Source: a virus. From it: a stretch of DNA of 20,453 nt. This document shows positions 1-14,452 of the stretch, in pieces. The position numbers and the translations under genes are program-made. Under the pieces are notes generated by a model that was given only the letters and a program-made list of their open reading frames with translations, did not search any database and was not told the origin of the DNA. Position 1 is the first letter of the stretch; each line of letters begins with the position of its first letter. The stretch lies in IMG/VR virus record IMGVR_UViG_3300044825_002320, positions 1 to 20,453 of that record. One strand, 5' to 3'.

Positions 1-1
1 C

Positions 2-151
2 TATGGAACCCTGCTGCAGGCCATGCCTTTCCTTAAAAACGACGAGCGCATCCCGATGTGGCAGGCTCAGTACAGCCAAATCATGCAGGTGCTGAAAAAC
101 GAGGACGTCACTCGGATTGCTGATCGTCAAGCTACTGTACTGGATTCATGA
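2..151 (+). CDS. C-terminal end of an unknown phage gene (partial)
   Basis: An open frame enters from the left edge (codons in phase with base 2) and stops with TGA at 149-151, giving the last 49 residues of a protein. The end is hydrophilic and probably helical, with Met/Gln-rich stretches, and has no motif I recognise. The next gene starts inside the stop codon (ATGA at 148-151), so the two are probably translationally coupled. Position at the head of the structural genes suggests a virion or assembly protein, but that is inferred from location only. Confidence 0.6.
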   Translation, partial: YGTLLQAMPFLKNDERIPMWQAQYSQIMQVLKNEDVTRIADRQATVLDS

Positions 152-1392
152 TGAGCTATAACTCGCCTTTTACCGGAAACGTAATCCAGCCCACCGACGT
201 CGCCTACCGGGCGATCACCCTATCTGCTAACACGCAGCTTCAGTGGCCGATTAACGGTAACGCGACAGACGACTACGCCGCCCGGATCATGGAGGTCACG
301 GCGACCGCCGGCGGGCTTCGCCTGGATATGCCGCCGGCTAACCAAGCCTCAGTCGGAAACGATGCCCTAATCCGAAACGTCGGGGCGACAACCTTCACGG
401 TCGCTGATTTCGATGGAAACACGATCGTATCGATCGCTGCCGGTGAGGCTAAGTACATCTACATTGAGACCAACCCGGATGAAGCTGGGACTTGGGGGAT
501 TATCGCCTTTGGGGTGGGCACATCGAACGTAGATGCCTCAACCCTTGCTGGATACGGACTTTTAGCCCTAGGGAACACCCTAAATCAGTCCCATCCGGTT
601 AGCACGGTTAATTCAAACTACACGATTGTGGTTGCCGATCGGGCTCAAACTCTCGTGTGGACCGGTGGGAATGGCACCTTCACCCTGCCATCAGTTGGCG
701 CCTTGGGTAATAACTGGTTCGTTCTCATCCGTAACGGCGGCACCGGAAACCTGTCTTTGTCCCCAAGCGGTGGGGATCTGATCAACGGGGCGGCCTCAAT
801 CAACCTTCAGCCGGCTGACTCCTGTATTGTCGTCTGCTCAGGAACGGCCTTTTACACGGTTGGAATCGGACAAAGTACCGAATTTAACTTCACCCAGTTG
901 ACCAAGGCGGTCACAGCGGGAACCTACACCCTGACGGCGGCGGAGGCCTCAAACGTCATTCAGAAGTACACCGGAACCCTGACTAACAATGTCACCGTGG
1001 TCCTCCCACCGACGATTCAGGTGTACTACATCGCTAACCAAACCGATGGAACCCTAGCTAACTACACGATTACCTTTCAGACAAGCGCAGTCGGTGCGAC
1101 TGCGGCGATCGTGCCGGCCGGTCAGCAGGTGACCTTAGTCTGCGATTCGGTCAATCTGTATAACGCTAACACCATCCAAGCGGGCATTATTAGCGCCCTG
1201 CTTGCCGATGGTTCTGCCGCCGTCCCATCGCTAGCCTTTGCTACGGAGCCGAGTACGGGTCTATTTAGGCCGGCCGGTGGTCAGTTGGGCATCTCAATCC
1301 TTGGAACTCAAGAGGTTACCTTCAGTGCGGCCGGTATGACTGTGGCGGGCACGGGAACCTTTACCGGCGGTGTACTTGGCGGGACGTTCTAA
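148..1392 (+). CDS. Beta-rich virion protein, fibre/appendage-like
   Basis: This is a 414-residue protein with a virion-appendage look: rich in Thr, Ala, Gly, Asn and Val, almost no Cys, and no catalytic motif. Three degenerate copies of a roughly 90-residue beta-domain can be seen at about residues 22-122, 151-241 and 253-342. Each follows the order Tyr/Ile-Thr strand, Thr-Leu-Pro, Ile-x-Asn-x-Gly, Leu-x-Pro-x-x, then a Val/Cys strand. Residues 352-405 hold the DGSAAVPSLAF / TGLFRP / LGI module that ends many phage fibre proteins just before a chaperone or adhesin part, yet this protein stops soon after it. The start is the first ATG of the ATGA overlap; a second ATG follows directly. The stop overlaps the next start as TAATG. 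Family-level assignment rests on the C-terminal module; a baseplate or capsid-decoration role is also possible. Confidence 0.6.
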   Translation: MMSYNSPFTGNVIQPTDVAYRAITLSANTQLQWPINGNATDDYAARIMEVTATAGGLRLDMPPANQASVGNDALIRNVGATTFTVADFDGNTIVSIAAGEAKYIYIETNPDEAGTWGIIAFGVGTSNVDASTLAGYGLLALGNTLNQSHPVSTVNSNYTIVVADRAQTLVWTGGNGTFTLPSVGALGNNWFVLIRNGGTGNLSLSPSGGDLINGAASINLQPADSCIVVCSGTAFYTVGIGQSTEFNFTQLTKAVTAGTYTLTAAEASNVIQKYTGTLTNNVTVVLPPTIQVYYIANQTDGTLANYTITFQTSAVGATAAIVPAGQQVTLVCDSVNLYNANTIQAGIISALLADGSAAVPSLAFATEPSTGLFRPAGGQLGISILGTQEVTFSAAGMTVAGTGTFTGGVLGGTF

Positions 1393-3626
1393 TGACCGCA
1401 AAAGTATTTGCCCTCGATACTCTCGCCGGTATCCAGCGGGACGGTACTGTATTTGATAAGCAGTATTACAACGACGGCCGGTGGGTAAGGTTTCAGCGTG
1501 GCCGCCCCCGTAAGATCGGTGGATATCGGGTTATCTCTCAAAACCTGACCGGCCCTTCCCGAGGCATTTGGGTAAACGCTCAGAATGCCTTTAACTACAT
1601 CTTTTCCGGATACTCAGACGGCCTTCAAGAGCTCACCATCGACGATAACGGGGTGGGTGCCGGGTTTTTAGAGCTCACGCTTTCAAACTTCACCGCCTCC
1701 CCCTTAAATCTGTGGCAGTTCGACGGCTTTTACGATGTCGGTGGAGCTGGTGTAAATACGATCGTCGCGCACCCAGGTCAGAACCTGGCGGCAATCGATA
1801 ACACCACGAACACCCCGGTCCTAATCGGGGACATCAACGGCACATCTTTAAGTCAAATCGGTGTTTTCACTGACACAGTTTCGACCACAAACGGCGTTCC
1901 GACAGTCACTTTAGCGGTTGCCAATCCGCTGATCGCGGCCGGTCAAACCATCACAGGGGCCGGGATTCAGGCGAATACGACGATTGTCTCGGTCGTGGGG
2001 ACAACGATCACGATGAGCCAAAACGCTACGGCTACGGCGAGCATAACTGCGACCTTTAATAACAATGTCTCTGTCTCCGGGGGTGTGGTTGTCCTTCACC
2101 CCTATGTGTTCGTCTATGGAAATAACGGCCTGATCAGGAACTGCTCGGCAGGAAACGCCCAAGACTGGGTTTCTGCAGATGCTAACGAGGTCAATGTGGC
2201 CACCGGAAAGATTGTCCAGGGGCTACCAGTGCGTGGCGGCTCAAACTCCCCTTCGGGCCTCTTTTGGTCCCTGGACTCCCTAGTTCGGGTGTCTTATGCA
2301 CCTCAATCCTTAGGTGTAGCTGGAACCGGGAACTTTGCTCCCCCTACCTTTTGGCGGTACGACATTATTTCGTCACAGACCTCAATCATGTCTTCTCAGT
2401 GTGTGATTGAGTATGACGGGGTCTATTACTGGTGCGGTGTCGATCGATTCATGCTCTATAACGGTGTCGTTAAAGAGATCCCGAATGCGATGAATCAGAA
2501 CTACTTTTTCGACAATCTGAACTACTCTCAGCGTCAAAAGGTATGGGTCACAAAGGTTCCCCGTTTTGGTGAGGTATGGTGGTTTTACCCCCGCGGAACC
2601 TCGGAAGAGTGTAATGACGCCATCATCTACAACATCCGGGAGAATACTTGGTATGACGCCGGGACGGCTTTAGGGGCCCGTAGATCCGCCGGGTACTTCT
2701 CTCAGGTCTTTGCCTACCCGGTTGAAGCAGACTGGGAGATTATCCCGCAGGTCACGAAGCTGATCGCCTCTGTAAGTTTTTTCAACGGCATCGACCAAAT
2801 CGGCTTGGATACTTATTACACCGAGCTCGCCCTGCCGGATGTTGTAGAGGGGTCAAATATCCCGACAGGGACATTTTTGACCAACATCCAGTCAAGCGGG
2901 ATTAAGACTTTAGGAACAATCACCGGGGGTGCGGGTTACTTGGATAACACCTACACCGATGTCCCCTTAACCGGCGGCACGGGTTTAGGGGCGACTGCTG
3001 ACATCACGGTCGCAGGCGGCACGGTAACGGCCGTGACCATCATTCTGCCCGGGGCGACCTATTTAGTAGGCGATGTCCTATCCGCTGATGCCGCAGATCT
3101 TGGGGGCGTGGGGGCAGGATTTTCGGTCCCGGTGGCCACCCTCTTCCCCATGGTGATTACCCTATCTAATGCCCCGACGGCCACAGACACCCAAAATCTG
3201 ACCTTTAAGACGCCTGCCAATAAGATTGATGTCTATCAACATGAGATCGGTACAGACGCCGTAAACGGCCAAAATGTCTTCGCTATTGAGTCTTATTTTG
3301 AGACCAATGACTTGGGTTGGGTCTCAGGAGGTCCGTCTGCCCCGTCGCCTGAGGGGGCGAACCGGTGGTTAAGGCTTGAGCGGGTGGAGCCTGACTTCCT
3401 GCAAAACGGTCAGATGAGCTTGGTCATCACCGGTAGACCTTACGCCCAGGTAGCGGATCAGCCGTCTAGCCCTTATTTCTTCGACTCCAACACGGGCAAG
3501 ATCGATATGAAAGAGCAACGGCGCGAGCTGCGGCTTAAATTCATCTCAAACATAGTGGGGGGTAACTACCAGCTCGGCCGGGTCATCCTGAGCGCAGACG
3601 TTGGTGATGTGAGAGGCTACTCATGA
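1392..3626 (+). CDS. Stabilisation/tail-hub-like structural protein with inserted modules
   Basis: A 744-residue protein beginning with DTLAGIQRDGTVFDKQYYND, then RWVRFQRGRPRKIGGYR. That opening (request for a 'given' sequence, then Arg-rich GG-Y-R) is common in packaged-DNA-stabilisation or tail-type proteins of podoviruses. The body has regularly spaced Trp/Tyr-containing strands (WVSADANEV, YYWCGVDRFMLYNG, EVWWFYPRG, NTWYDAGT), which would suit a beta-propeller such as P22 gp10; I infer that fold, I do not see it. Two sequence modules are inserted: residues 160-222 (GAGIQANTTIVSVVGTTITMSQ) and residues 480-605, the latter itself interrupted at 508-587. It overlaps the upstream stop (TAATG) and the downstream start (ATGA at 3623). 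Structural role is fairly safe; the exact equivalent of P22 gp4/gp10/gp26 is not. Confidence 0.6.
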   Translation: MTAKVFALDTLAGIQRDGTVFDKQYYNDGRWVRFQRGRPRKIGGYRVISQNLTGPSRGIWVNAQNAFNYIFSGYSDGLQELTIDDNGVGAGFLELTLSNFTASPLNLWQFDGFYDVGGAGVNTIVAHPGQNLAAIDNTTNTPVLIGDINGTSLSQIGVFTDTVSTTNGVPTVTLAVANPLIAAGQTITGAGIQANTTIVSVVGTTITMSQNATATASITATFNNNVSVSGGVVVLHPYVFVYGNNGLIRNCSAGNAQDWVSADANEVNVATGKIVQGLPVRGGSNSPSGLFWSLDSLVRVSYAPQSLGVAGTGNFAPPTFWRYDIISSQTSIMSSQCVIEYDGVYYWCGVDRFMLYNGVVKEIPNAMNQNYFFDNLNYSQRQKVWVTKVPRFGEVWWFYPRGTSEECNDAIIYNIRENTWYDAGTALGARRSAGYFSQVFAYPVEADWEIIPQVTKLIASVSFFNGIDQIGLDTYYTELALPDVVEGSNIPTGTFLTNIQSSGIKTLGTITGGAGYLDNTYTDVPLTGGTGLGATADITVAGGTVTAVTIILPGATYLVGDVLSADAADLGGVGAGFSVPVATLFPMVITLSNAPTATDTQNLTFKTPANKIDVYQHEIGTDAVNGQNVFAIESYFETNDLGWVSGGPSAPSPEGANRWLRLERVEPDFLQNGQMSLVITGRPYAQVADQPSSPYFFDSNTGKIDMKEQRRELRLKFISNIVGGNYQLGRVILSADVGDVRGYS
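1869..2057 (+). repeat. Phage structural module 1 (GxGI...TTI...ITMS) in the 744-aa protein
   Basis: Residues 160-222 of the 744-residue protein form a self-contained stretch with the order Val-Thr-Leu, ITGAGIQANTTIVSV, then TITMSQNATATA. The same pattern recurs as a partner of many phage structural proteins and, in weaker form, within residues 480-605 of this same protein. It looks like an inserted beta-module and interrupts a region that otherwise reads continuously from NTPVLIGDING to VVVLHPYVFVYG. Confidence 0.5.
2829..3206 (+). repeat. Nested modules 2 and 3 in the 744-aa protein
   Basis: Residues 480-507 (VVEGSNIPTGTFLTNIQSSG) and residues 588-605 (ITLSNAPTATDTQNLTF) together make one module of the same type as that at residues 160-222. 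They are separated by residues 508-587, a second module type: GGAGYLDNTYTDVPLTGGTG, ATADITVAGGTVTAVTI, GATYLVGDVLSADAADLGG. That second type is a recurrent Gly-rich module in phage structural proteins. Seen directly is the split; the order of the insertions is inferred. Confidence 0.5.
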
Positions 3627-3895
3627 CGACCCCGATTACTCCTGTCGGTGGCCAGCCTTTGGTTTACGACCCGAGGTTTCAGACTTTTGAGACTTGGGCG
3701 GCTTTGATGTGTGAGCAGTACGCCGGACAACAATTAGAGATCCCCGGACCGCTCACCGATTGGAGGCTTTGGGGTAATGGGTTAAAGGCCATCGATATCT
3801 TTTCTAATGAAGCCATTCCGGGCACAGAAGACTTTGATGATTGGTCGGAGTGGGCTCAAGCTTTACTTGCAGCAGTTAATCCGAGGGTAGCGTGA
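3623..3895 (+). CDS. Small acidic conserved phage protein, unknown role
   Basis: A 90-residue acidic protein with many aromatic residues: FQTFETWAALMCEQYAGQQ in the first half, DWRLWGNGLKAID in the middle, and an acidic EDFDDWSEWAQALL helix near the end. No enzyme motif or membrane segment is visible. It starts within the stop of the 744-residue gene (ATGA) and its own stop overlaps the next start (GTGA at 3892-3895). Small acidic proteins in this position are often head-tail joining or virion assembly proteins, but I do not recognise this one. Composition matches the upstream structural genes, not the AT-rich genes that follow, so it marks the last gene before the composition break. Confidence 0.65.
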   Translation: MTTPITPVGGQPLVYDPRFQTFETWAALMCEQYAGQQLEIPGPLTDWRLWGNGLKAIDIFSNEAIPGTEDFDDWSEWAQALLAAVNPRVA

Positions 3896-4584
3896 AGTAT
3901 TGGTGCGAAAACGATCCAGTAAGAACGCATTTTTGGGATGCATGGAGCATTTTGTTTCCTGCTTGGGAACGCGCATTTGTGTGTGTTGCATCGCACTATA
4001 AAGGCAAGATAAATGATCAAGACCTGTTAGCGCGGATCGATCAATTCTGCCGTCAGGAAACCGCCCATGCTAACGCCCATTCCGCTCACAACAAAAAGCA
4101 CTTGCTGACACCTTTTGAAATTGAAGAGACTCATAAAGCAAAATTAGTGTTCAGAAAGCCAAATCACAAGATGTGGCTTGCAACGATGGTGTCGATTGAG
4201 CACATGGCCGCTTGTTTATCAAGAGTTTTTTTAAATAGATACGAATGTCATTCAAGTAAAGAATTAAATCTCTACAAGTGGCATTGCAGGGAAGAGCTTG
4301 AGCATAAAAGCTTAGCTTTGGATTTATGGTCGCATTTTGATCATTCAAAAAAAGAACTTAAAAAAATTGCCGTTTTAAATATGTTTTATGTTTTAAAACG
4401 GGTATTGCGACACACAATAAATCAATGCAAAAAAGAAAAGATTCTTTGGAAATTTAAAACTTTAAAATCTTTTTTAATTTTAGGAACAGAGATTATTTTT
4501 AAATGTTTGATGCCTTATGCAGAGATTTTTACTGATCGGTTCCACCCTAACAATCACGACGATTCCAAATGGATAACAGCGTAA
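3892..4584 (+). CDS. Ferritin-like di-metal protein, PF10118 'predicted metal-dependent hydrolase' family
   Basis: A 230-residue protein with the layout of the PF10118/COG3687 family and a complete set of ferritin-like di-metal ligands: Glu26 (FPAWERAF), Glu56 and His59 (RQETAHANAH), Glu103 (SIEHMAA), Glu135 and His138 (REELEHKSLAL). This is the E, ExxH, E, ExxH order of a four-helix bundle holding two metals. Two hydrophobic helices follow at about 157-171 and 190-210, so membrane association is possible. The start is GTG in a GTGA overlap with the previous stop, preceded by a GAGGG ribosome site. Family members are otherwise cellular proteins of unknown substrate; I do not know a phage role. 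The gene is strikingly AT-rich (15 of 60 bases G/C at 4321-4380, 10 of 60 at 4441-4500), unlike its upstream neighbours, which points to recent acquisition. Family call is good; 'hydrolase' is only the family's name, not shown here. Confidence 0.75.
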   Translation: MKYWCENDPVRTHFWDAWSILFPAWERAFVCVASHYKGKINDQDLLARIDQFCRQETAHANAHSAHNKKHLLTPFEIEETHKAKLVFRKPNHKMWLATMVSIEHMAACLSRVFLNRYECHSSKELNLYKWHCREELEHKSLALDLWSHFDHSKKELKKIAVLNMFYVLKRVLRHTINQCKKEKILWKFKTLKSFLILGTEIIFKCLMPYAEIFTDRFHPNNHDDSKWITA

Positions 4585-5054
4585 GTTCGTATCGTGATGC
4601 TTTCGGAAAAATGAGCGCGGAGGACATTATTCGCGCAGATTGGGCTCGTAATTACGAATCAGAGGGTGTTCCGTTAAATTTAGCTAGAGCGGCAGTCAAA
4701 GTTCATACGGATGATGGATTGCCGATTGCAAGGCTTGGAAACACTTTAATTTTAATTACTCCAAAAGATGATTTCAAAACAGTTAAGTTTCACACATTAA
4801 CGGCTGATGATTTTGAATCTTACTTTTCAATAATATTAAAATTTTTGATTGCACTAAATCAAAAACGCGGCACTCAAATTGCTTACACCTATTTAGACGA
4901 CAAAAGAATTTTTGATGTAATCAAACGAAATTTGAGCTCATACATATTTTTAGAGCCCAACGAAGATGAACCTCAAAAGGGTAAGTTCAAACTAATATTT
5001 GAAATAGGTCAATTTGTCTCTGACATGGAAAACCGCAGGGAGGTTTTGGGATAA
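4569..5054 (+). CDS. Unknown 161-aa protein preceding the giant virion protein
   Basis: A 161-residue, AT-rich gene overlapping the end of the ferritin-like gene by 16 bases and abutting the next start directly (TAA then ATG). Its middle reads as a mixed alpha/beta domain: GLPIARLGNTLILITPKDDF, VKFHTLTADDF, a hydrophobic helix SIILKFLIALNQ, AYTYLDDKRIFDVIK, then KFKLIFEI. This layout, and its place just before the internal virion genes, recalls the acetyltransferase-fold internal protein gp13 of T7-like phages, but I see no acetyl-CoA loop and treat that as a weak guess. There is no good ribosome site before ATG 4569; ATG 4611 is an alternative start. Translation is probably coupled to the upstream gene. 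Confidence 0.6.
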   Translation: MDNSVSSYRDAFGKMSAEDIIRADWARNYESEGVPLNLARAAVKVHTDDGLPIARLGNTLILITPKDDFKTVKFHTLTADDFESYFSIILKFLIALNQKRGTQIAYTYLDDKRIFDVIKRNLSSYIFLEPNEDEPQKGKFKLIFEIGQFVSDMENRREVLG

Positions 5055-8000
5055 ATGGGTTGGGTAAGAGACAGGCTAGACGATGCTGAAGATGCAGTTT
5101 CCGACGCCGTTGAATGGGTCGCCGATGAGGTTATTGAACCGGCAGTTGAGCTTGTTGGCGATGTAATCCAAAGTGCTTTAGACAATCCGGTAAAAACGGT
5201 AGCGCAAATCTATGCCATTGTTACGCCCGGAATGCAGTGGTTATTGCCCGTAATTGAGGGTGTAGATGTTGCGGCAAAAGGCGGGGATCTTGAAGATGTA
5301 GCAAAAGCAGTTGCAATCTCCGTCATCGCCCAAGAGGCTGGATCAAGGGTCGGACAATCGGTCAGTGCAAGCACCTCGAACGCTGCTACTGCGGCTAACT
5401 ATGGCACTAATTACGCTTCTCAGCAGACGGCAGCTTTAGCTGCTCAAGAGGCAGGTATGCAGACCGCCGGTCAGATTGCCGGCAATATTGCTGGATCGGC
5501 TGCGGCATCAGGAACGGTGGCTGTCGTTACCGGTCAAGATCCAGTTAAAGCCATGGTTGCCGGTGGCGTGAATGCTGCGGTGCCTGCCGTATTGGGCCAG
5601 GTTGAAGGATTCCGAAATCTAACTCCAAGCACCCAAAAAATCATTGAAACGGCGGTCAAAACCCAGCTCGCCGGTGGAGATGTGGGAGCTGCAGTCATTC
5701 GTTCGGCAATTGTAAGCTCACAGCTTGCCACGGATACCATCAGAAAACTTGACCCAAATAACACTTTAAGCCGTGGTCAGCAGTCAATCCTTGCTGATGT
5801 TGTAACTGCAGCATCTGTGGCTGCTTTCACAAATGGCAATGTTAATAGCGCAATTCAGAAAGAATTGTTTAATGCTGGAGCTAAAGTCCTAGGCGACATG
5901 GCTAAGGGCAAATTTACTGAATTGACCACCGGCACTCAAAAATCAAGTGAAAAAATTAGCAACCTTGCTAGTCAAATTGAAGCAAATGAGGCAAAACAAA
6001 ATTTAATTGTAAATGATTACAAAGTCGTTGCAGATCAACTTAACACAAGAATTGCAGAACAAGATAGATTAAAAAAGTTGATGGACGATGAAGTCTTTTA
6101 TGCTAATTCGTATGTCAAAGAATATAACGCCGGCAATTACACCGATAGAGATGGTGTTCAGAAATTTATTGATCGAGCTAATAAAGCAGTTGAAAATTAC
6201 AATGCCTATGTCACATCATTAAACACCGATTACGAAAAATATTTTAAGCCAACACTTGATAAGGCCGCCAGCGATCTCAACAGTCTAAAAATTCCGCATG
6301 AACAGCTTGTGGCTGATTTTGGCAAAGAACAAGAAAATCTCAAAAATCTAGCAAGTCAGTTAGGTAAAGAGGTTGAAACCATACAGCGCGGGGTTGAAAG
6401 GTCATTTGTTGGTGTCATGGATACCAACTTTAATCCCGATGAATACAGAAAAATCAATAAACTTGACGCAAGTGTAGATCCTTACAGTCATTGGCTATCA
6501 ACCGGTCAATATCAGAATCTTCCGACGAACTATAAGGCTGCTGAGTCAGCTACATATGATGAGCAAGCAAGACTCTTAACTGAGTCGTTAGCAGCTAGAG
6601 ATTTAAAGCTAACCAATCTCACCAAAGAAGATCGGAATAGATTTTACGAAACGATTGAGAAAAAATACGGCAGTGACTATAGCGCACTACGCAACGCGAC
6701 TATTGCTGATTTGGATATTGACAATATTTTCAAGACATCCTCATCGCTGACTGTTAATCAAGACTTTTCAAAAGAAGCTTATTCAGAAGGAAATCGGCCC
6801 TCTCCAACAACTTACTCGGCCCCGGACGGCTACAAGCTGGCATCGCAAGACGACATTTATAACGACCGTGCAATTCTTACACCGACAAGTAACGGTAGCT
6901 TTGCGTGGCTGACAGAAGACCCAACTACTCGGACAGATGGTTACTTTTGGGACCCTCAGCGCGGTGAAAAGGTTCTGCGAATCAGCATTACTGGGGTTGG
7001 ATCACAAGAAGACACGGGCGGTGTTAATAACACCTTATCTCAGCTTCGGGATAATGATCCTCTTGGATGGTTTGAGATGTTCCAAGATTTTCTTCCAGAC
7101 GATAAACAAAAAGCAGGTTTGGGGGAGGATGTTTATAACTTTATTAAAGACGCCTATAGCAACTTTAAGGGAAGTTTAGACCCTGGGACCCAGCAAGCGT
7201 TGGCTAAATTTGCGGCTGCAGCAAAACCAGAAAGCACAACAATTGATTTGCTCTCTGGGGTTCTAAATGGATTTAAAGCAATTACGGATGCATTTGGTGC
7301 CGATAACTCGGTGTCAAAAGCAATTGGTAATGCTCGTGGATATCTTCAGTCCTTATACAGCGCAGAGGCGATTGGAGATAAGAGACTTCAGTCTCAAATC
7401 ATTGCAGAGGCAAGAGACAAAGGCGTATTAGATCAAGTTATTGCGGCGGTAGAGGCAATCGCTGCATATCCTGGGGTCATGGTTGAGGCCGCAGGAACAA
7501 TCGTTCCGACCGTAATGACGGCAATGGCCAGCTCAGTCATGGGCGCCGCCCCGGTCGTTGCCAGACTGTCTCAGTACGGGGTTGGCGCAGTATCAGGCGC
7601 CGGAATTATCAAAGGCACCATATATGAGGAAACTAAGGCGGCATTGATTGCTGCCGGGGTTGATCGTGGCACAGCAGAGTTAAAGGCTCAGCAAGCCCAG
7701 GCTTACAACGGCAAAAATCTTGATTCAATAGTGGCAGGTGCCTTGTTGGGGGTCGTTGCCGGAGGAACGGGTGTTGAAAAAGCAGTGGTTGCCCAAGTTG
7801 CCGGCGACATAGCTGATAGAGTTGCGGCAAAAACCCTTGCTAAACAATTTGTTGTTGGTGGCCTGAAAGAGGGCATTCCAGAGGCAGCCCAAGGCGGTCA
7901 AGAAAAACTAGCAGAGAACATCGCGTTACAACGTGAAGGTTTTGCGGTTCCCACATGGCGAGGTGTGGCTGTAGCTGGAACATTGGAAGGTCTTGCCGGC

Positions 8001-10298
8001 GCTCCGATTGGAGGCGCTACCGATGTGGCCAGTAAGCTTGATGTATACGATAAAGCGTATACCTCGGTTGATGAATTAAAAGCAAAGGCTGCTGAAGAAA
8101 ACTTTCCAATCGGTTCAAACACATCATCGCTATTTTCCAAATACTCAGGCTATAAAGACGAAGCTTCTACGCTTGAGTCATTTCAAAAATATGCAGATCC
8201 ATTAGCTACTACAGTCCAAGAAGCTAGAGAATTTCTTGCTGCAAACGGTTACACAAACCCAACTGATGCAGACATACAAAATGTTATCAATGAAGTAGTT
8301 AGAACAAGTACAACCATCAGAGGTCCGTTTGGATCATCATTTAGAGTTCCATTAACGGAAGTTAGGGTTCGCCCTGAATCATCTGCGATAACTCAAGCAG
8401 AAGCAGTAGCAGATCCAAATGTATTTGATATTAACGAAGTCAAAGCTGCTGCAGCCGCTGAAGGGTATGCGCTTACTGATGAGCAAGCTAAACAAATTGT
8501 AAAAGAAGCAAACGAACAGGAGGCAACTGCTGCCTATAGGGCATCGATTGATCCGCTAGCCGTTACTCAAGCTGAAGCAGCAGACTTTTTTAATCGTTAT
8601 GGTTATGTGCCAAACGATGATCAGCTCAGGTTGTTTATAGCATCAAAGCCCGAACAAGAAGTTTTGGCAGATGTTGATCGGTATGTCAATCCAAGACAGA
8701 TGACACTTGCTGAACTTGAGTCGCTTGCTGCTGCTCAGGGTTACAAGCTGTCATCGGATGATATTAAGAATTTTGTTTCGCAAGGATTGTTGCCAACTTT
8801 TGAAGCAGAACAAGCTGAAAAGTTTAATAAGTACGCCGATCCTCTCGCCACAATCGAAAGCGAAGCCCGCGAGTTCTTGGCTAATCAGGGGTACAGAAAC
8901 CCGACTCAAGCCGATGTTAATAAAATCGTTGGTCAAATTCTTGAATCAAAAGCTCAGCAAGAAGCAATTGGGATTGCCGATCCAAATGTATTCGATATAG
9001 GTGAGGTCAAGGCTGCTGCGGCTGCTGAAAACTTTAACCTTACTGATGAGCAGGCTGCCGCTTTAGCAAGGGAAGTAAACGAACAAGAGGCGACAAGACT
9101 TTATCGGTCAGAAATTGACCCATTTGCGGTAACTCAACAAGAAGCTCAGGAGTTTTTCGACACATTCGGATATAAGCCTGAGACAGATGAGTTAATTCAA
9201 TTTAGTGTTTCTCGACCGGAAGCGGAAGTAAAGCCCGAAGTTGGTCAGTACGTCGATCCTCGGCAGATGACACAACAAGAGGCGGAAGCTTTATTCGGAA
9301 AAGAGGAATATAAATTAGATCCGGATGAGGTTTTGCAGTTTGTCCGCCAGGGCAAAGACATTCAGCAGGCTCAGGTTGAAGCAGATATCCGTAAATATAT
9401 CGATGAGCAGACCATCAAGGTTCCTGAGCTCATGGAATACTATCGAAGCCTTGGCATCGATGTGCCCGCTCCTGAAGATGTCACTCCGTATATTGGTCAG
9501 TTTGTAGAGGCAGATGTATTTAAAGACTTAGCCGCGAAGTCAGATGCCCTCAAATTAAATGCACTGAAGTACAAAATAGCCCAAGATCAAGAGGCGGCCC
9601 GCCGCAGAAGTCTTGGTCAGGCAGGGCTAGCTCTAGTCACGGGATCGGGTGTAACACCAGAGGAAACCGCCAGCGCTCCGTTGGGGCCTTTTATTACCTC
9701 ACGAATCAAACAGCAAGAATTTGTCAGCCCCCTTGAGGAGTTCATGAAGGAGGCTAAAACCGGTGATTTCACCGAAACCGAGCTAATTCAGCCCTCGGTG
9801 GAACCCGCGCCAGAACTGGCCGAAAATACGCAACAAGGAGGAATCATGCCCAGTTATTTCACCTATGGGGAGCCGACTGATATCGACCAGCTTTTCAGTC
9901 CACCCACAGGTTTCGCAACCAACTTCAACCCCTTTGGTAACTTTATGGCTGCCCAAGGGGGCCTGGCCGTCCCTCCGATGGCCACCGGGGGGTTGCCGGT
10001 TGTGCATCATTCCGGGAAGCTGCGGCGTGACTATCGGCAGGGGGATGCGGTGTCCGGCCCCGGAGATGGGCAGTCAGACGACATCCCTGCCATGCTGGCC
10101 GACGGGGAGTTCGTGATCCCCGCTGATGTGGTCGCAGCCTTAGGGAACGGATCAACCAAGGCAGGCTCTGACAAGCTATATGACATGATGCATTCGATCC
10201 GGGCGCACCACCGCTCTGCTAGACCTAAAGACCTACCCCCGCCGGCAAAATCAAGCCCGCTGGATTATTTAAGTTCCCGGAAAAAGGCCAGGAGATAA
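5055..10298 (+). CDS. Giant internal virion / ejection-type protein (1747 aa)
   Basis: The largest gene in the window. Regions in order: an acidic amphipathic N-terminus with ALDNPVKTVAQIYAIVTPGMQWLL; an Ala/Gly-rich region to about 290; a Lys/Asn/Gln-rich coiled-coil-like region, about 295-450; a DPxEYR...DPYSHWLSTGQY motif at 455-490; a hydrophobic, glycine-rich region about 795-990 containing PEAAQGGQEKLAENIALQ (942-959), a motif I associate with giant phage virion proteins; an array of 45-50-residue repeats, 998-1491; and a GC-rich C-terminus with SGPGDGQSDDIPAMLADGEF, a motif frequent at the ends of large phage virion proteins. Likely role: stored in the head and ejected with DNA to help cross the envelope, as T7 gp15/gp16 are; that is by analogy. 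An AGGGAGG site lies upstream of ATG 5055. A strong in-frame internal start occurs at 9846. Lower G/C from the start to about 9590, then much higher (42 of 60 at 10021-10080). Confidence 0.7.
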   Translation: MGWVRDRLDDAEDAVSDAVEWVADEVIEPAVELVGDVIQSALDNPVKTVAQIYAIVTPGMQWLLPVIEGVDVAAKGGDLEDVAKAVAISVIAQEAGSRVGQSVSASTSNAATAANYGTNYASQQTAALAAQEAGMQTAGQIAGNIAGSAAASGTVAVVTGQDPVKAMVAGGVNAAVPAVLGQVEGFRNLTPSTQKIIETAVKTQLAGGDVGAAVIRSAIVSSQLATDTIRKLDPNNTLSRGQQSILADVVTAASVAAFTNGNVNSAIQKELFNAGAKVLGDMAKGKFTELTTGTQKSSEKISNLASQIEANEAKQNLIVNDYKVVADQLNTRIAEQDRLKKLMDDEVFYANSYVKEYNAGNYTDRDGVQKFIDRANKAVENYNAYVTSLNTDYEKYFKPTLDKAASDLNSLKIPHEQLVADFGKEQENLKNLASQLGKEVETIQRGVERSFVGVMDTNFNPDEYRKINKLDASVDPYSHWLSTGQYQNLPTNYKAAESATYDEQARLLTESLAARDLKLTNLTKEDRNRFYETIEKKYGSDYSALRNATIADLDIDNIFKTSSSLTVNQDFSKEAYSEGNRPSPTTYSAPDGYKLASQDDIYNDRAILTPTSNGSFAWLTEDPTTRTDGYFWDPQRGEKVLRISITGVGSQEDTGGVNNTLSQLRDNDPLGWFEMFQDFLPDDKQKAGLGEDVYNFIKDAYSNFKGSLDPGTQQALAKFAAAAKPESTTIDLLSGVLNGFKAITDAFGADNSVSKAIGNARGYLQSLYSAEAIGDKRLQSQIIAEARDKGVLDQVIAAVEAIAAYPGVMVEAAGTIVPTVMTAMASSVMGAAPVVARLSQYGVGAVSGAGIIKGTIYEETKAALIAAGVDRGTAELKAQQAQAYNGKNLDSIVAGALLGVVAGGTGVEKAVVAQVAGDIADRVAAKTLAKQFVVGGLKEGIPEAAQGGQEKLAENIALQREGFAVPTWRGVAVAGTLEGLAGAPIGGATDVASKLDVYDKAYTSVDELKAKAAEENFPIGSNTSSLFSKYSGYKDEASTLESFQKYADPLATTVQEAREFLAANGYTNPTDADIQNVINEVVRTSTTIRGPFGSSFRVPLTEVRVRPESSAITQAEAVADPNVFDINEVKAAAAAEGYALTDEQAKQIVKEANEQEATAAYRASIDPLAVTQAEAADFFNRYGYVPNDDQLRLFIASKPEQEVLADVDRYVNPRQMTLAELESLAAAQGYKLSSDDIKNFVSQGLLPTFEAEQAEKFNKYADPLATIESEAREFLANQGYRNPTQADVNKIVGQILESKAQQEAIGIADPNVFDIGEVKAAAAAENFNLTDEQAAALAREVNEQEATRLYRSEIDPFAVTQQEAQEFFDTFGYKPETDELIQFSVSRPEAEVKPEVGQYVDPRQMTQQEAEALFGKEEYKLDPDEVLQFVRQGKDIQQAQVEADIRKYIDEQTIKVPELMEYYRSLGIDVPAPEDVTPYIGQFVEADVFKDLAAKSDALKLNALKYKIAQDQEAARRRSLGQAGLALVTGSGVTPEETASAPLGPFITSRIKQQEFVSPLEEFMKEAKTGDFTETELIQPSVEPAPELAENTQQGGIMPSYFTYGEPTDIDQLFSPPTGFATNFNPFGNFMAAQGGLAVPPMATGGLPVVHHSGKLRRDYRQGDAVSGPGDGQSDDIPAMLADGEFVIPADVVAALGNGSTKAGSDKLYDMMHSIRAHHRSARPKDLPPPAKSSPLDYLSSRKKARR
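8046..9527 (+). repeat. Degenerate 45-50-aa repeat array with 189-aa super-repeat
   Basis: Residues 998-1491 of the 1747-residue protein are tandem units of the form DP-x-x-x-T-x-x-EA-x-x-F/A-x-x-x-GY-x-x-x-x-D-x-x-x-x-x-V. Unit starts at about Y998, Y1046, D1120, I1165, Y1210, Y1260, D1309, I1354, Y1399 and Y1448. Units 2-5 (call them A, B, C, D) recur as units 6-9: DPNVFDI at 1120 and 1309, IDPLAVTQ/IDPFAVTQ at 1165 and 1354, and YVNPRQMT/YVDPRQMT at 1210 and 1399. Each pair is exactly 189 residues (567 bases) apart. The first A unit has about 25 extra residues. Repeat identity is still visible in the DNA (TCCAAATGTATT at 8414 and, with the same spacing, at 8981). Confidence 0.85.
9835..9848 (+). 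promoter_or_regulatory. Strong internal ribosome site and in-frame ATG inside the giant gene
   Basis: AAGGAGG at 9835-9841 is followed four bases later by ATG at 9846-9848, in frame with the 1747-residue protein at Met1598. Initiation there would yield a separate 150-residue protein ending at 10298, beginning MPSYFTYGEPTDIDQLF and carrying the SGPGDGQSDDIPAMLADGEF motif. It is a better ribosome site than that of most genes in the window. It could be chance in a GGAGGA (Gly-Gly) context. Confidence 0.5.
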
Positions 10299-10301
10299 GA
10301 A

Positions 10302-11330
10302 ATGTCGATTACCCAAGGCGCACCCTTACCCGATATAACGACGACCGAAACCAAAGCGCAGGCGGTCCCAAGTTATTACACCGATTATCTCCAAGACATC
10401 TCTCAGGCCGGTCAGACGGCTATGGGCAGATCGGCAGCCGAAGGAATCGCTGCCTATGACCCGCTACAGACTTTAGGTTACGGACAAGTTGAGACTGCCG
10501 CCGGGGCCTACCGACCCGGGCTAACTGCCGCCGGGCAGACGGCAGCCGCCGCTGCAGGGGGTATTGATCCCACTCGAATCAGCGCCCTGATGGACCCCTA
10601 CCAGCAGGCCGTGGTTGATGAGATGGCCAGGCTTCAGCAAAGGAACATCCAACAGTCGGTGCTCCCCTCTTTAAAAGGCGCTTTTGTGGGCTCCGGCGGT
10701 CTCGGTGGCCAAAGATATGCCGCAGCCACTGGGCAGACCTTAGCCGAGATGCAGCGAAACCTGATGGGCCAGCAGACGGGAGCCCTTTCCTCCGGATACC
10801 AAAACGCCCTGAAGGCTGCCTTAGATGAGCTGCAGATACGGAATCAGGCCGCTCAAACCCAAGCCAAGATCGCCCAGCAAGAGCAGGAGTTAGGTTTGAC
10901 CGGAGCTGGAGCTTTAACCAAGGCCGGAGCTGAGCGGCAGGCTTACGAGCAGAGCATCCTAGACTACCCCTTAAAGCAGGCTACAGCAGCGGCCGGTTTG
11001 ATGCGCGGTTATCAAGTGCCGATTAGCACCACGGAGACCTTCAAAGGACCGAAGGCCGGGGTGTATCAGCAATCACCGCTAGCAAATATTCTCGGTGTAC
11101 TTTCAACCCTTGGATCAATTCGCCCAGGTTCGGTGACTTATGACAAAGACGGCAAACCAATTGCTAGCGATAGTCTTTTGAAAATGGGTATGGATTACTT
11201 AAAAAATTTAAATTTCCCCGTATTTGGTTCTAGTGGAGAGCCATTGAGCGCTGAAGAAGCTGCTGATTGGTGGGGCGGATTCGACATTACAGGGAAAAGA
11301 GGCGGTCTTGCTTCAATCCGCAGGAGATAG
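10302..11330 (+). CDS. Internal virion protein-like, Ala/Gln-rich (342 aa)
   Basis: A 342-residue protein rich in Ala, Gln and Gly. Its core, about residues 95-200, is helical with MDPYQQAVVDEMARLQQRNI, LPSLKGAFVGSGGLGGQRYA and repeated Gln/Ala heptad-like segments; I associate this pattern with podovirus internal virion or ejection proteins lying next to the giant one. The C-terminus carries a short AT-rich segment (about 11080-11330) ending RGGLASIRRR. AGGAG lies just before ATG 10302, three bases after the previous stop, and the gene is followed three bases later by the next. The C-terminal change in composition (38 of 60 G/C at 10681-10740 against 19 of 60 at 11161-11220) suggests that the end was exchanged. 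No enzymatic motif seen. Confidence 0.6.
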   Translation: MSITQGAPLPDITTTETKAQAVPSYYTDYLQDISQAGQTAMGRSAAEGIAAYDPLQTLGYGQVETAAGAYRPGLTAAGQTAAAAAGGIDPTRISALMDPYQQAVVDEMARLQQRNIQQSVLPSLKGAFVGSGGLGGQRYAAATGQTLAEMQRNLMGQQTGALSSGYQNALKAALDELQIRNQAAQTQAKIAQQEQELGLTGAGALTKAGAERQAYEQSILDYPLKQATAAAGLMRGYQVPISTTETFKGPKAGVYQQSPLANILGVLSTLGSIRPGSVTYDKDGKPIASDSLLKMGMDYLKNLNFPVFGSSGEPLSAEEAADWWGGFDITGKRGGLASIRRR

Positions 11331-13084: not shown

Positions 13085-14452
13085 ATGGAAGACTTGCCGT
13101 TTTACTCTTCGCTAAACGAAACCCAAAAGGTCTACGCCGATAAGATCGCGGCTGAGGCCCGCCGGATGGGTATCTCTCCTAAGCTTGCGGTATCGATTGC
13201 CTATCAGGAAAGCCGCCTAAATCCTCGGGTGAGCGCCGGATCTGCCGGTGAGATTGGGATCATGCAGGTCAAACCCACCACCGCAAAAGAGGTGGGCATC
13301 GATGAGAAAGATCTCGCCAACCCGGATAAGAACATTGAGGCCGGTCTCAGATATCTGAAGAAATCTTTAGATTTGAGCGAAGGCGATGAGCGCTTAGCGG
13401 CTGCGGGGTATAACGCCGGTATCAATCATTCCTTCTTTTCTCCCCAAGGCACGACCCTCCCGGATACGACCATCCGATATTTGGCTGACCTAAAGGGTTA
13501 TAACGCCTTCTCTCCGAAGCCGGAGCCGGCGCCTGGTCCGAGCGAAGAGGATATCGGTCAGTCGAAAGCTGAAACCATCGGTGGAGCTGCCGGGGCTATT
13601 TTAGGCAGTGGAGTGACAACAAAACGTGCCGCTATGGATCTATTGACCGCCGGGGGTAAGAAGGCCGCGAGTGTGTTGGGGCAACCCCCCGCAGCACCTA
13701 CCCCATCTGCACCACCGGGAGCCGCGCCGGGAATGCCGGGAGCAGCACCTGCAGCCGCGCCTGGGGCACCAGCTCCGGGAGCACCTGCCGGCCCAAGAGC
13801 CACCGGCCCGGGAAGCGCGACCTTTAACTACGCTAAAGCCTTTGGGCTACCTGACATTGAGGCGCAACGTGCTCTCGGTTTAGGGAAAGAATCCGGCGAG
13901 GTTTGGGATCTGATGAGTAAGCGTCAGCAGGCCCTAACCGACATCGGACAAAGGTTCCCGACTGAGCGGTATATCGAAAATCCACGCTTTGGTGGCCTGA
14001 TGACTCCGGATCAAGGTCCGGGGCCGCGGGCATCCTTTGTAAGCCAACCTGGGGGTCTACAGCCCCTCCCACCGCGGGCGCCGATACCGGTCACTCCCCC
14101 ATCGAAAGGAGCCCTGGAGCGGGTTACCAGCCTTTTTGAAAGCATGATTGAACCAGGATCGCCCACAAGAACCCTAGGTAGGGCAGCAATTCGATATGCA
14201 GCCCCGCCGCTTGCCCTGTATCAGACCGGCACCGAGCTGGGATCGCTTGTGTCTGAAAGCGAGAGGGAGAAGCCGGATTACGCCAAGATGGCGCTTTCCG
14301 GGATCGGAGCCTTGGGAGCGCTTGGTTCGATGTTCCCGGCCACTGCCCCCATTGGAATCCCGCTAGCGATCGGTGCCCCGGCTATTCAATATTTGCGGGA
14401 AAGAAAGCCAGAGCCGCCACCTTCTGGCTTACCTGAATTCACCGCACCCTAG
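13085..14452 (+). CDS. Virion lytic transglycosylase (SLT domain, GH23-like)
   Basis: A 455-residue protein whose first 115 residues are a soluble lytic transglycosylase domain: IAYQESRLNP with the catalytic Glu42, GEIGIMQVKP (55-64), NIEAGLRYL (83-91) and AAGYNAG (106-112) are the four hallmark motifs. Such enzymes cleave the glycan strands of peptidoglycan at the start of infection so that DNA and internal proteins can pass. A flexible Ala/Pro/Gly-rich linker follows at 201-242, then a helical part and a glycine-rich hydrophobic segment at about 400-440 (SGIGALGALGSMFPATAPIG) that might insert in membrane. There is no signal peptide, which fits a virion protein rather than the lysis endolysin. 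It ends the rightward operon. GGAGGG is upstream and the gene starts two bases after the previous stop. Confidence 0.9.
   Translation: MEDLPFYSSLNETQKVYADKIAAEARRMGISPKLAVSIAYQESRLNPRVSAGSAGEIGIMQVKPTTAKEVGIDEKDLANPDKNIEAGLRYLKKSLDLSEGDERLAAAGYNAGINHSFFSPQGTTLPDTTIRYLADLKGYNAFSPKPEPAPGPSEEDIGQSKAETIGGAAGAILGSGVTTKRAAMDLLTAGGKKAASVLGQPPAAPTPSAPPGAAPGMPGAAPAAAPGAPAPGAPAGPRATGPGSATFNYAKAFGLPDIEAQRALGLGKESGEVWDLMSKRQQALTDIGQRFPTERYIENPRFGGLMTPDQGPGPRASFVSQPGGLQPLPPRAPIPVTPPSKGALERVTSLFESMIEPGSPTRTLGRAAIRYAAPPLALYQTGTELGSLVSESEREKPDYAKMALSGIGALGALGSMFPATAPIGIPLAIGAPAIQYLRERKPEPPPSGLPEFTAP

Follow-up and report, generated by a model that had tools for sequence, protein, structure and literature searches.

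A gene for a predicted ferritin-like di-metal protein of family PF10118 is exchangeable cargo in a phage virion operon and may serve acyl or lipid chemistry

The window, a stretch of 20,453 nucleotides of viral DNA (IMG/VR record IMGVR_UViG_3300044825_002320), contains an operon of virion genes in which a 230-residue protein is encoded between a small conserved gene and a gene for a GNAT-fold protein (Table 1). In a profile search, residues 2-223 of this protein were aligned to positions 15-247 of the PF10118 profile (profile length 247) with 145.1 bits and an E value of 4e-42, the Pfam cut-off being 33.2. An intact member of this family had been proposed here by a sequence-only reading, and the profile match bears this out. 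The overlaps of the gene with its neighbours, GTGA upstream and 16 bases downstream, were found as described in that reading, and the position inside the virion operon was also retained. The flanks had to be corrected: the immediate neighbours are the 90-aa and 161-aa genes, the head/tail-type (tail/stabilisation-type) gene lies one gene further upstream and the giant gene follows the 161-aa gene, so that neither of the two genes named as flanks is adjacent. As a second IMG/VR contig is identical to positions 1-10581 of the window at 99.98%, the locus is not an accident of assembly.

Table 1. Features of the window around the PF10118 gene.
Feature	Coordinates	Strand	Remarks
744-aa head/tail structural protein	1392..3626	+	PHROG 3287 virion structural protein; annotated as phage stabilisation protein in relatives
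90-aa conserved gene, upstream edge of the slot	3623..3895	+	4-base GTGA overlap with the PF10118 gene
PF10118 (Metal_hydrol) ferritin-like di-metal protein gene	3892..4584	+	GTG start, 230 aa; Pfam, ligands, AF2 model
161-aa GNAT-fold protein gene	4569..5054	+	16-base overlap (4569-4584) with the PF10118 gene; fold from predicted structure
1747-aa giant protein, probable internal virion protein; downstream edge of the slot	5055..10298	+	degenerate internal repeats
342-aa protein	10302..11330	+	weak similarity to DNA ejection protein PHROG 4287
455-aa protein with SLT transglycosylase domain	13085..14452	+	internal virion/ejection type

The six metal ligands of PF10118 (Glu26, Glu56, His59, Glu103, Glu135 and His138) are all kept in the window protein. 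They were without variation in 54 aligned rows of phage and cellular proteins and in all 69 covering sequences of the phage clade (68/68 for the last two ligands); His63, His104 and His131 were likewise invariant in the 69 divergent phage sequences. The sequence-only reading had listed the same ligands and deduced selection from them. Going beyond this deduction, pairwise dN/dS values of about 0.04-0.11 were obtained for the phage PF10118 genes from unsaturated pairs only, and the gene is under strong purifying selection. No match to the protein was given by PHROGs, sequence searches of the PDB with the phage protein and with the profile returned zero matches, and no significant match was found in BFVD. 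The GC content of the window's copy is 0.37, versus 0.50. A recent foreign origin was considered on this ground and rejected, because the copies of relatives broadly track the GC content of their own phage (0.32-0.58) and the adjoining 161-aa gene is just as AT-rich.

Structure prediction (AF2) gave a confident model (pLDDT 96, pTM 0.91) that is helical throughout and places the ligands on four core helices, as had been anticipated: a Glu on helix 9-37, an ExxH pair on 43-69, a Glu on 93-117 and a second ExxH pair on 123-148. The 50 VIA rows for the model comprised ribonucleotide reductase R2, aldehyde-deformylating oxygenase (ADO), R2-like ligand-binding oxidase (R2lox), CmlI, a phenylacetate-degradation-like protein and uncharacterised ferritin-like proteins. 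The top match had a Z score of 12.3 at 4.0 Å, which is below the caution level of the tool for helical bundles, and Foldseek gave a weak match (E 0.14). Since these structural matches are weak (Z of about 12), the assignment of the fold also rests on the ligand pattern. Together, model and ligands point to a four-helix ferritin-like di-metal fold with a predicted metal site. ADO and R2lox have the fold that is predicted here, and ADO is close to the phage protein in length (191 residues could be aligned to a chain of 220 residues, Z 12.0); however, identity to them is about 10%. Judged from the ligand pattern and the fold, the product is probably an O2-activating, oxygenase- or desaturase-like enzyme and not a hydrolase. 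Desaturases are di-metal enzymes too. No description of an activity was found, in the literature searched, for any PF10118/COG3687 member, and we know of no member of this bacterial family with a tested function.

The distribution of the family among viruses was established by a profile scan. PF10118 proteins were encoded by 81 IMG/VR contigs, at least 65 of which form a close group with at least 39% identity, whereas the identity between this group and cellular PF10118 proteins does not exceed 32%. In a tree of 65 rows, the 36 phage rows were united in a single clade (SH-aLRT 100), whose branch has a length of about 1.0 changes per site. By its sequence, the window gene is thus part of one phage-only PF10118 clade with at least 65 IMG/VR contigs. 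Its carriers are podovirus-like, largely freshwater phages, and the gene was found in two phage backbones, in both cases within the tail/ejection block. The 'predicted metal-dependent hydrolases' (PF10118/COG3687) of Pseudomonas, Marinobacter and Limnohabitans belong to the same family and have the same six ligands and conserved core. In contrast to these proteobacterial proteins, the phage clade is separate, shorter (230 aa) and sited in a virion operon.

The virion-slot clade was not found in isolated phages. Two INPHARED matches were rejected: Acinetobacter 'phage MD-2021a' looks like bulk bacterial sequence, with several PF10118 copies and contigs of up to 254 kb, and in Pseudomonas record OQ658364 the match lies past the annotated attR, in apparent host flank. 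Separate, more cell-like PF10118 copies occur in a few other viral contigs outside the clade (numbered L076-L082 in our contig series); the records among L076, L078, L079, L080 and L082 include ones of 108 kb and 322 kb.

Only one entry in the phage clade comes from a 'cellular' source: a 27-kb contig, mostly of phage sequence, that was binned in a Limnohabitans MAG. The same MAG also has a cellular PF10118 copy, which adjoins a 4HBT thioesterase, an SDR and ETF-QO, and the family is carried by 28/30 genomes of the genus. The host is possibly a Limnohabitans-type bacterium; this link is weak, its basis being a single phage contig within the bin of a MAG. The neighbours of cellular PF10118 genes, tallied with 24 GC-rich loci left out, were mostly AraC regulators and alpha/beta hydrolases and were weakly informative.

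When relatives were retrieved through the 90-aa gene, PF10118 was often missing. Contigs L172 and L177, which carry it, have upstream flanks 97-98% identical to those of L175, which lacks it; the downstream flanks are 90% (L172) and 76% (L177) identical to L175. The net difference between L172 and L175 is 680 bp, that is, one coding sequence, and ATGA stop/start overlaps lie at both junctions of the insert. The ATGA of the 90-aa gene thus leads into PF10118 or directly into the 161-aa-type gene. L170 is 79% identical over positions 1-3893 of the window and diverges exactly where the 90-aa gene ends; both the PF10118 gene and the 161-aa gene are absent from it. Alleles are exchanged as well: L042 and L012 share about 90% identity across 15 kb and their PF10118 alleles are divergent, the drop in identity being limited to the gene. 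Furthermore, the gene is present in a second phage backbone (L023-L034), where it adjoins a DNA-ejection-type gene.

A survey of 57 non-redundant slots, assembled without regard to PF10118, gave PF10118 in 8, the synthase described below in 1, and a glycosyltransferase in 5; in a further 15 a GNAT-fold gene stood by itself, and the remaining 28 had none of the four. The slot of the cultured Caulobacter phage GB2A is empty. As PF10118 is missing from most relatives in which these virion genes flank the slot, the gene does not behave as a core virion gene; these comparisons show it to be dispensable, gene-precise accessory cargo and not an obligatory virion gene.

The main alternative occupant of the slot is an ACP-like gene followed by a ketoacyl synthase gene. 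In the relative MW202545, a '3-oxoacyl-ACP synthase' is annotated in the slot, and Pfam confirms a ketoacyl synthase. In a profile scan this enzyme was encoded by at least 245 viral contigs, of which 80 were inspected. In nearly all of these 80 the order was stabilisation-type gene, small gene, ACP-like gene, ketoacyl synthase, GNAT-fold gene and giant gene. An LDSLD-type site was present in 71/72 ACP-like proteins and Cys-His-His motifs in 73/79 synthases. Given its LDSLD site and its location next to the synthase, the ACP-like protein is a putative ACP. When searched each way, PF10118 and the synthase were found together in 0/12 and 0/12 contigs.

The cassette, with its divergent ketoacyl synthase, was seen in L263 (8435-10974), in L283-L362 and in MW202545 (L206; 21995-23815). 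The synthase corresponds to PHROG 35856, which has no assigned function there. In L263, the ketoacyl synthase and GNAT-fold genes are separated by a gene (9869-10525) for a 218-aa protein in which an H-x-D stretch is reminiscent of an iron oxygenase; Pfam gave no match for this protein or for the ACP-like protein of the same contig.

In other phages, the slot after the small gene is taken by a glycosyltransferase of GlcNAc type, about 316 aa long, or by proteins that seem to be related to it. Slots of this kind were noted in L254, L256, L258, L259, L260, L266, L270 and L272, the assignment to PF11397 coming from L258. Since a glycosyltransferase is also accepted, the cargo of the slot is not restricted to lipid genes. 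Where scored, a GNAT-fold neighbour accompanied 0/5 of these glycosyltransferases.

The model of the 161-aa protein (pLDDT 91) has a predicted GNAT fold, the entries in the PDB lists being acyltransferases of GNAT type or related to it (best Z 10.0). A gene of this type directly follows PF10118 in 56/56 loci and the synthase in 71/73, versus 15/48 of the other slot states (Fisher p 1.5e-4, with shared ancestry ignored). The acyl-CoA loop R/Q-x-x-G-x-G/A is missing in 16/17 members of the 161-aa family, and acyltransferase activity is therefore only putative. A T7 gp13 homologue was also considered as the identity of this protein and rejected, as no relatedness was detectable.

Late co-expression of the PF10118 gene with the virion genes, proposed earlier from its position, is likely, because the cargo consists of nothing but a coding sequence, which overlaps its neighbours by ATGA on either side and leaves no space for its own promoter or terminator; signals for either were no better than chance. 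The gene would thus be transcribed and translated with the tail and ejection proteins. In the infected cell, the di-metal enzyme would then most likely act on acyl or lipid substrates. Such substrates are suggested because the slot of relatives holds the ACP-like and ketoacyl synthase genes, the two kinds of cargo exclude each other in the contigs tested and a GNAT-fold gene is common to both downstream. To an auxiliary metabolic gene of this kind, made with the virion proteins and encoding a di-metal oxygenase-like enzyme for acyl or lipid substrates, we give about an even chance. The idea of an auxiliary metabolic gene, one of two put forward in the sequence-only reading, has gained from the near-identical phages without the gene and from the ACP-like and synthase genes in the same slot. 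On this evidence the gene looks like optional cargo for changing acyl or lipid chemistry during infection, and not like a part of the particle.

The other idea in that reading, a metal enzyme carried in the virion, has lost ground: a structural or essential role is disfavoured because the gene is dispensable and swappable. In the form of an optional enzyme that the virion core contains and that leaves it together with the DNA, to act at entry on, for example, membrane lipids or oxygen species, it is rather unlikely. The location within the tail/ejection block in two different backbones would agree with it, as would the strict pairing with the 161-aa gene, which occupies the position of internal virion gene 13 of T7. 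However, the 161-aa protein has no detectable kinship to T7 gp13, phages with 97%-identical flanks do without PF10118, and the gene is replaced as a unit by ACP-like and ketoacyl synthase genes, which encode soluble metabolic proteins. It is very improbable that the product is a catalytically dead structural protein retaining the ferritin-like helix bundle, since the six ligands and His63, His104 and His131, needless for a scaffold, are invariant in 69 sequences and sister phages dispense with the gene; its location among structural genes is what speaks for such a scaffold.

A moron for host takeover or stress, with a non-lipid task such as radical or oxygen handling or counter-defence, is unlikely but has a real chance. 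Presence/absence and turnover of alleles are typical of such genes, and a glycosyltransferase is among the slot occupants; on the other hand, the best-represented alternative occupant is the ACP-like and ketoacyl synthase pair, and the glycosyltransferase cargo is not paired with a GNAT-fold gene. That an R2-like radical protein of ribonucleotide reductase supplies nucleotides is hardly credible. R2 proteins are among the best structural neighbours, but Pfam clearly assigns PF10118, and no R1 partner was noticed by eye among the open reading frames of a 56,983-bp relative.

A more specific and quite doubtful scheme can be drawn by analogy with ACP-dependent protein acyltransferases. In a swappable acyl-modification cassette, either the ACP-like protein and ketoacyl synthase or the PF10118 enzyme would work with the GNAT-fold protein of the adjoining gene and would lipidate a phage protein (e.g. 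the giant internal virion protein from the neighbouring gene) or alter the host membrane in favour of DNA entry or of assembly. The exchange with the ACP-like and synthase genes provides a testable substrate hypothesis, acyl chains, for both phage and cellular PF10118 proteins. Moreover, metabolic genes placed in a gene-precise slot of a virion operon would be made late, with the particle proteins.

Phage-borne fatty-acid genes have precedents. Roseobacter prophages carry acpP-fabF-fabG (PMC8224337), cyanophage desaturases are cited in the same paper, and fabG/fabF/fabZ and desC have been found in viromes (PMC10653327); the kind of gene is therefore already known. An ACP-like gene and a FabF-type synthase also occur in the present slot. 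In contrast to the roseobacter and cyanophage lipid genes, PF10118 is a different family, and here there is a gene-precise late-virion slot whose occupants exclude one another and whose GNAT-fold neighbour is constant. In the literature searched, neither the PF10118 family in phages nor its slot and alternation with the synthase was found described.

The order of genes around the slot is similar to that of the T7 gene 12-13-14-15-16 block (tail protein, small protein, internal virion proteins, SLT protein); unlike the window-type phages, T7 has neither a PF10118 nor an ACP/synthase insert in this block. Repeats were observed within the 1747-aa giant gene (for example, 8409-8527 and 8976-9094 are 73% alike), and a C-terminal stretch of its product is about 52% alike over 60 aa to Caulobacter phage proteins annotated as tape measure.
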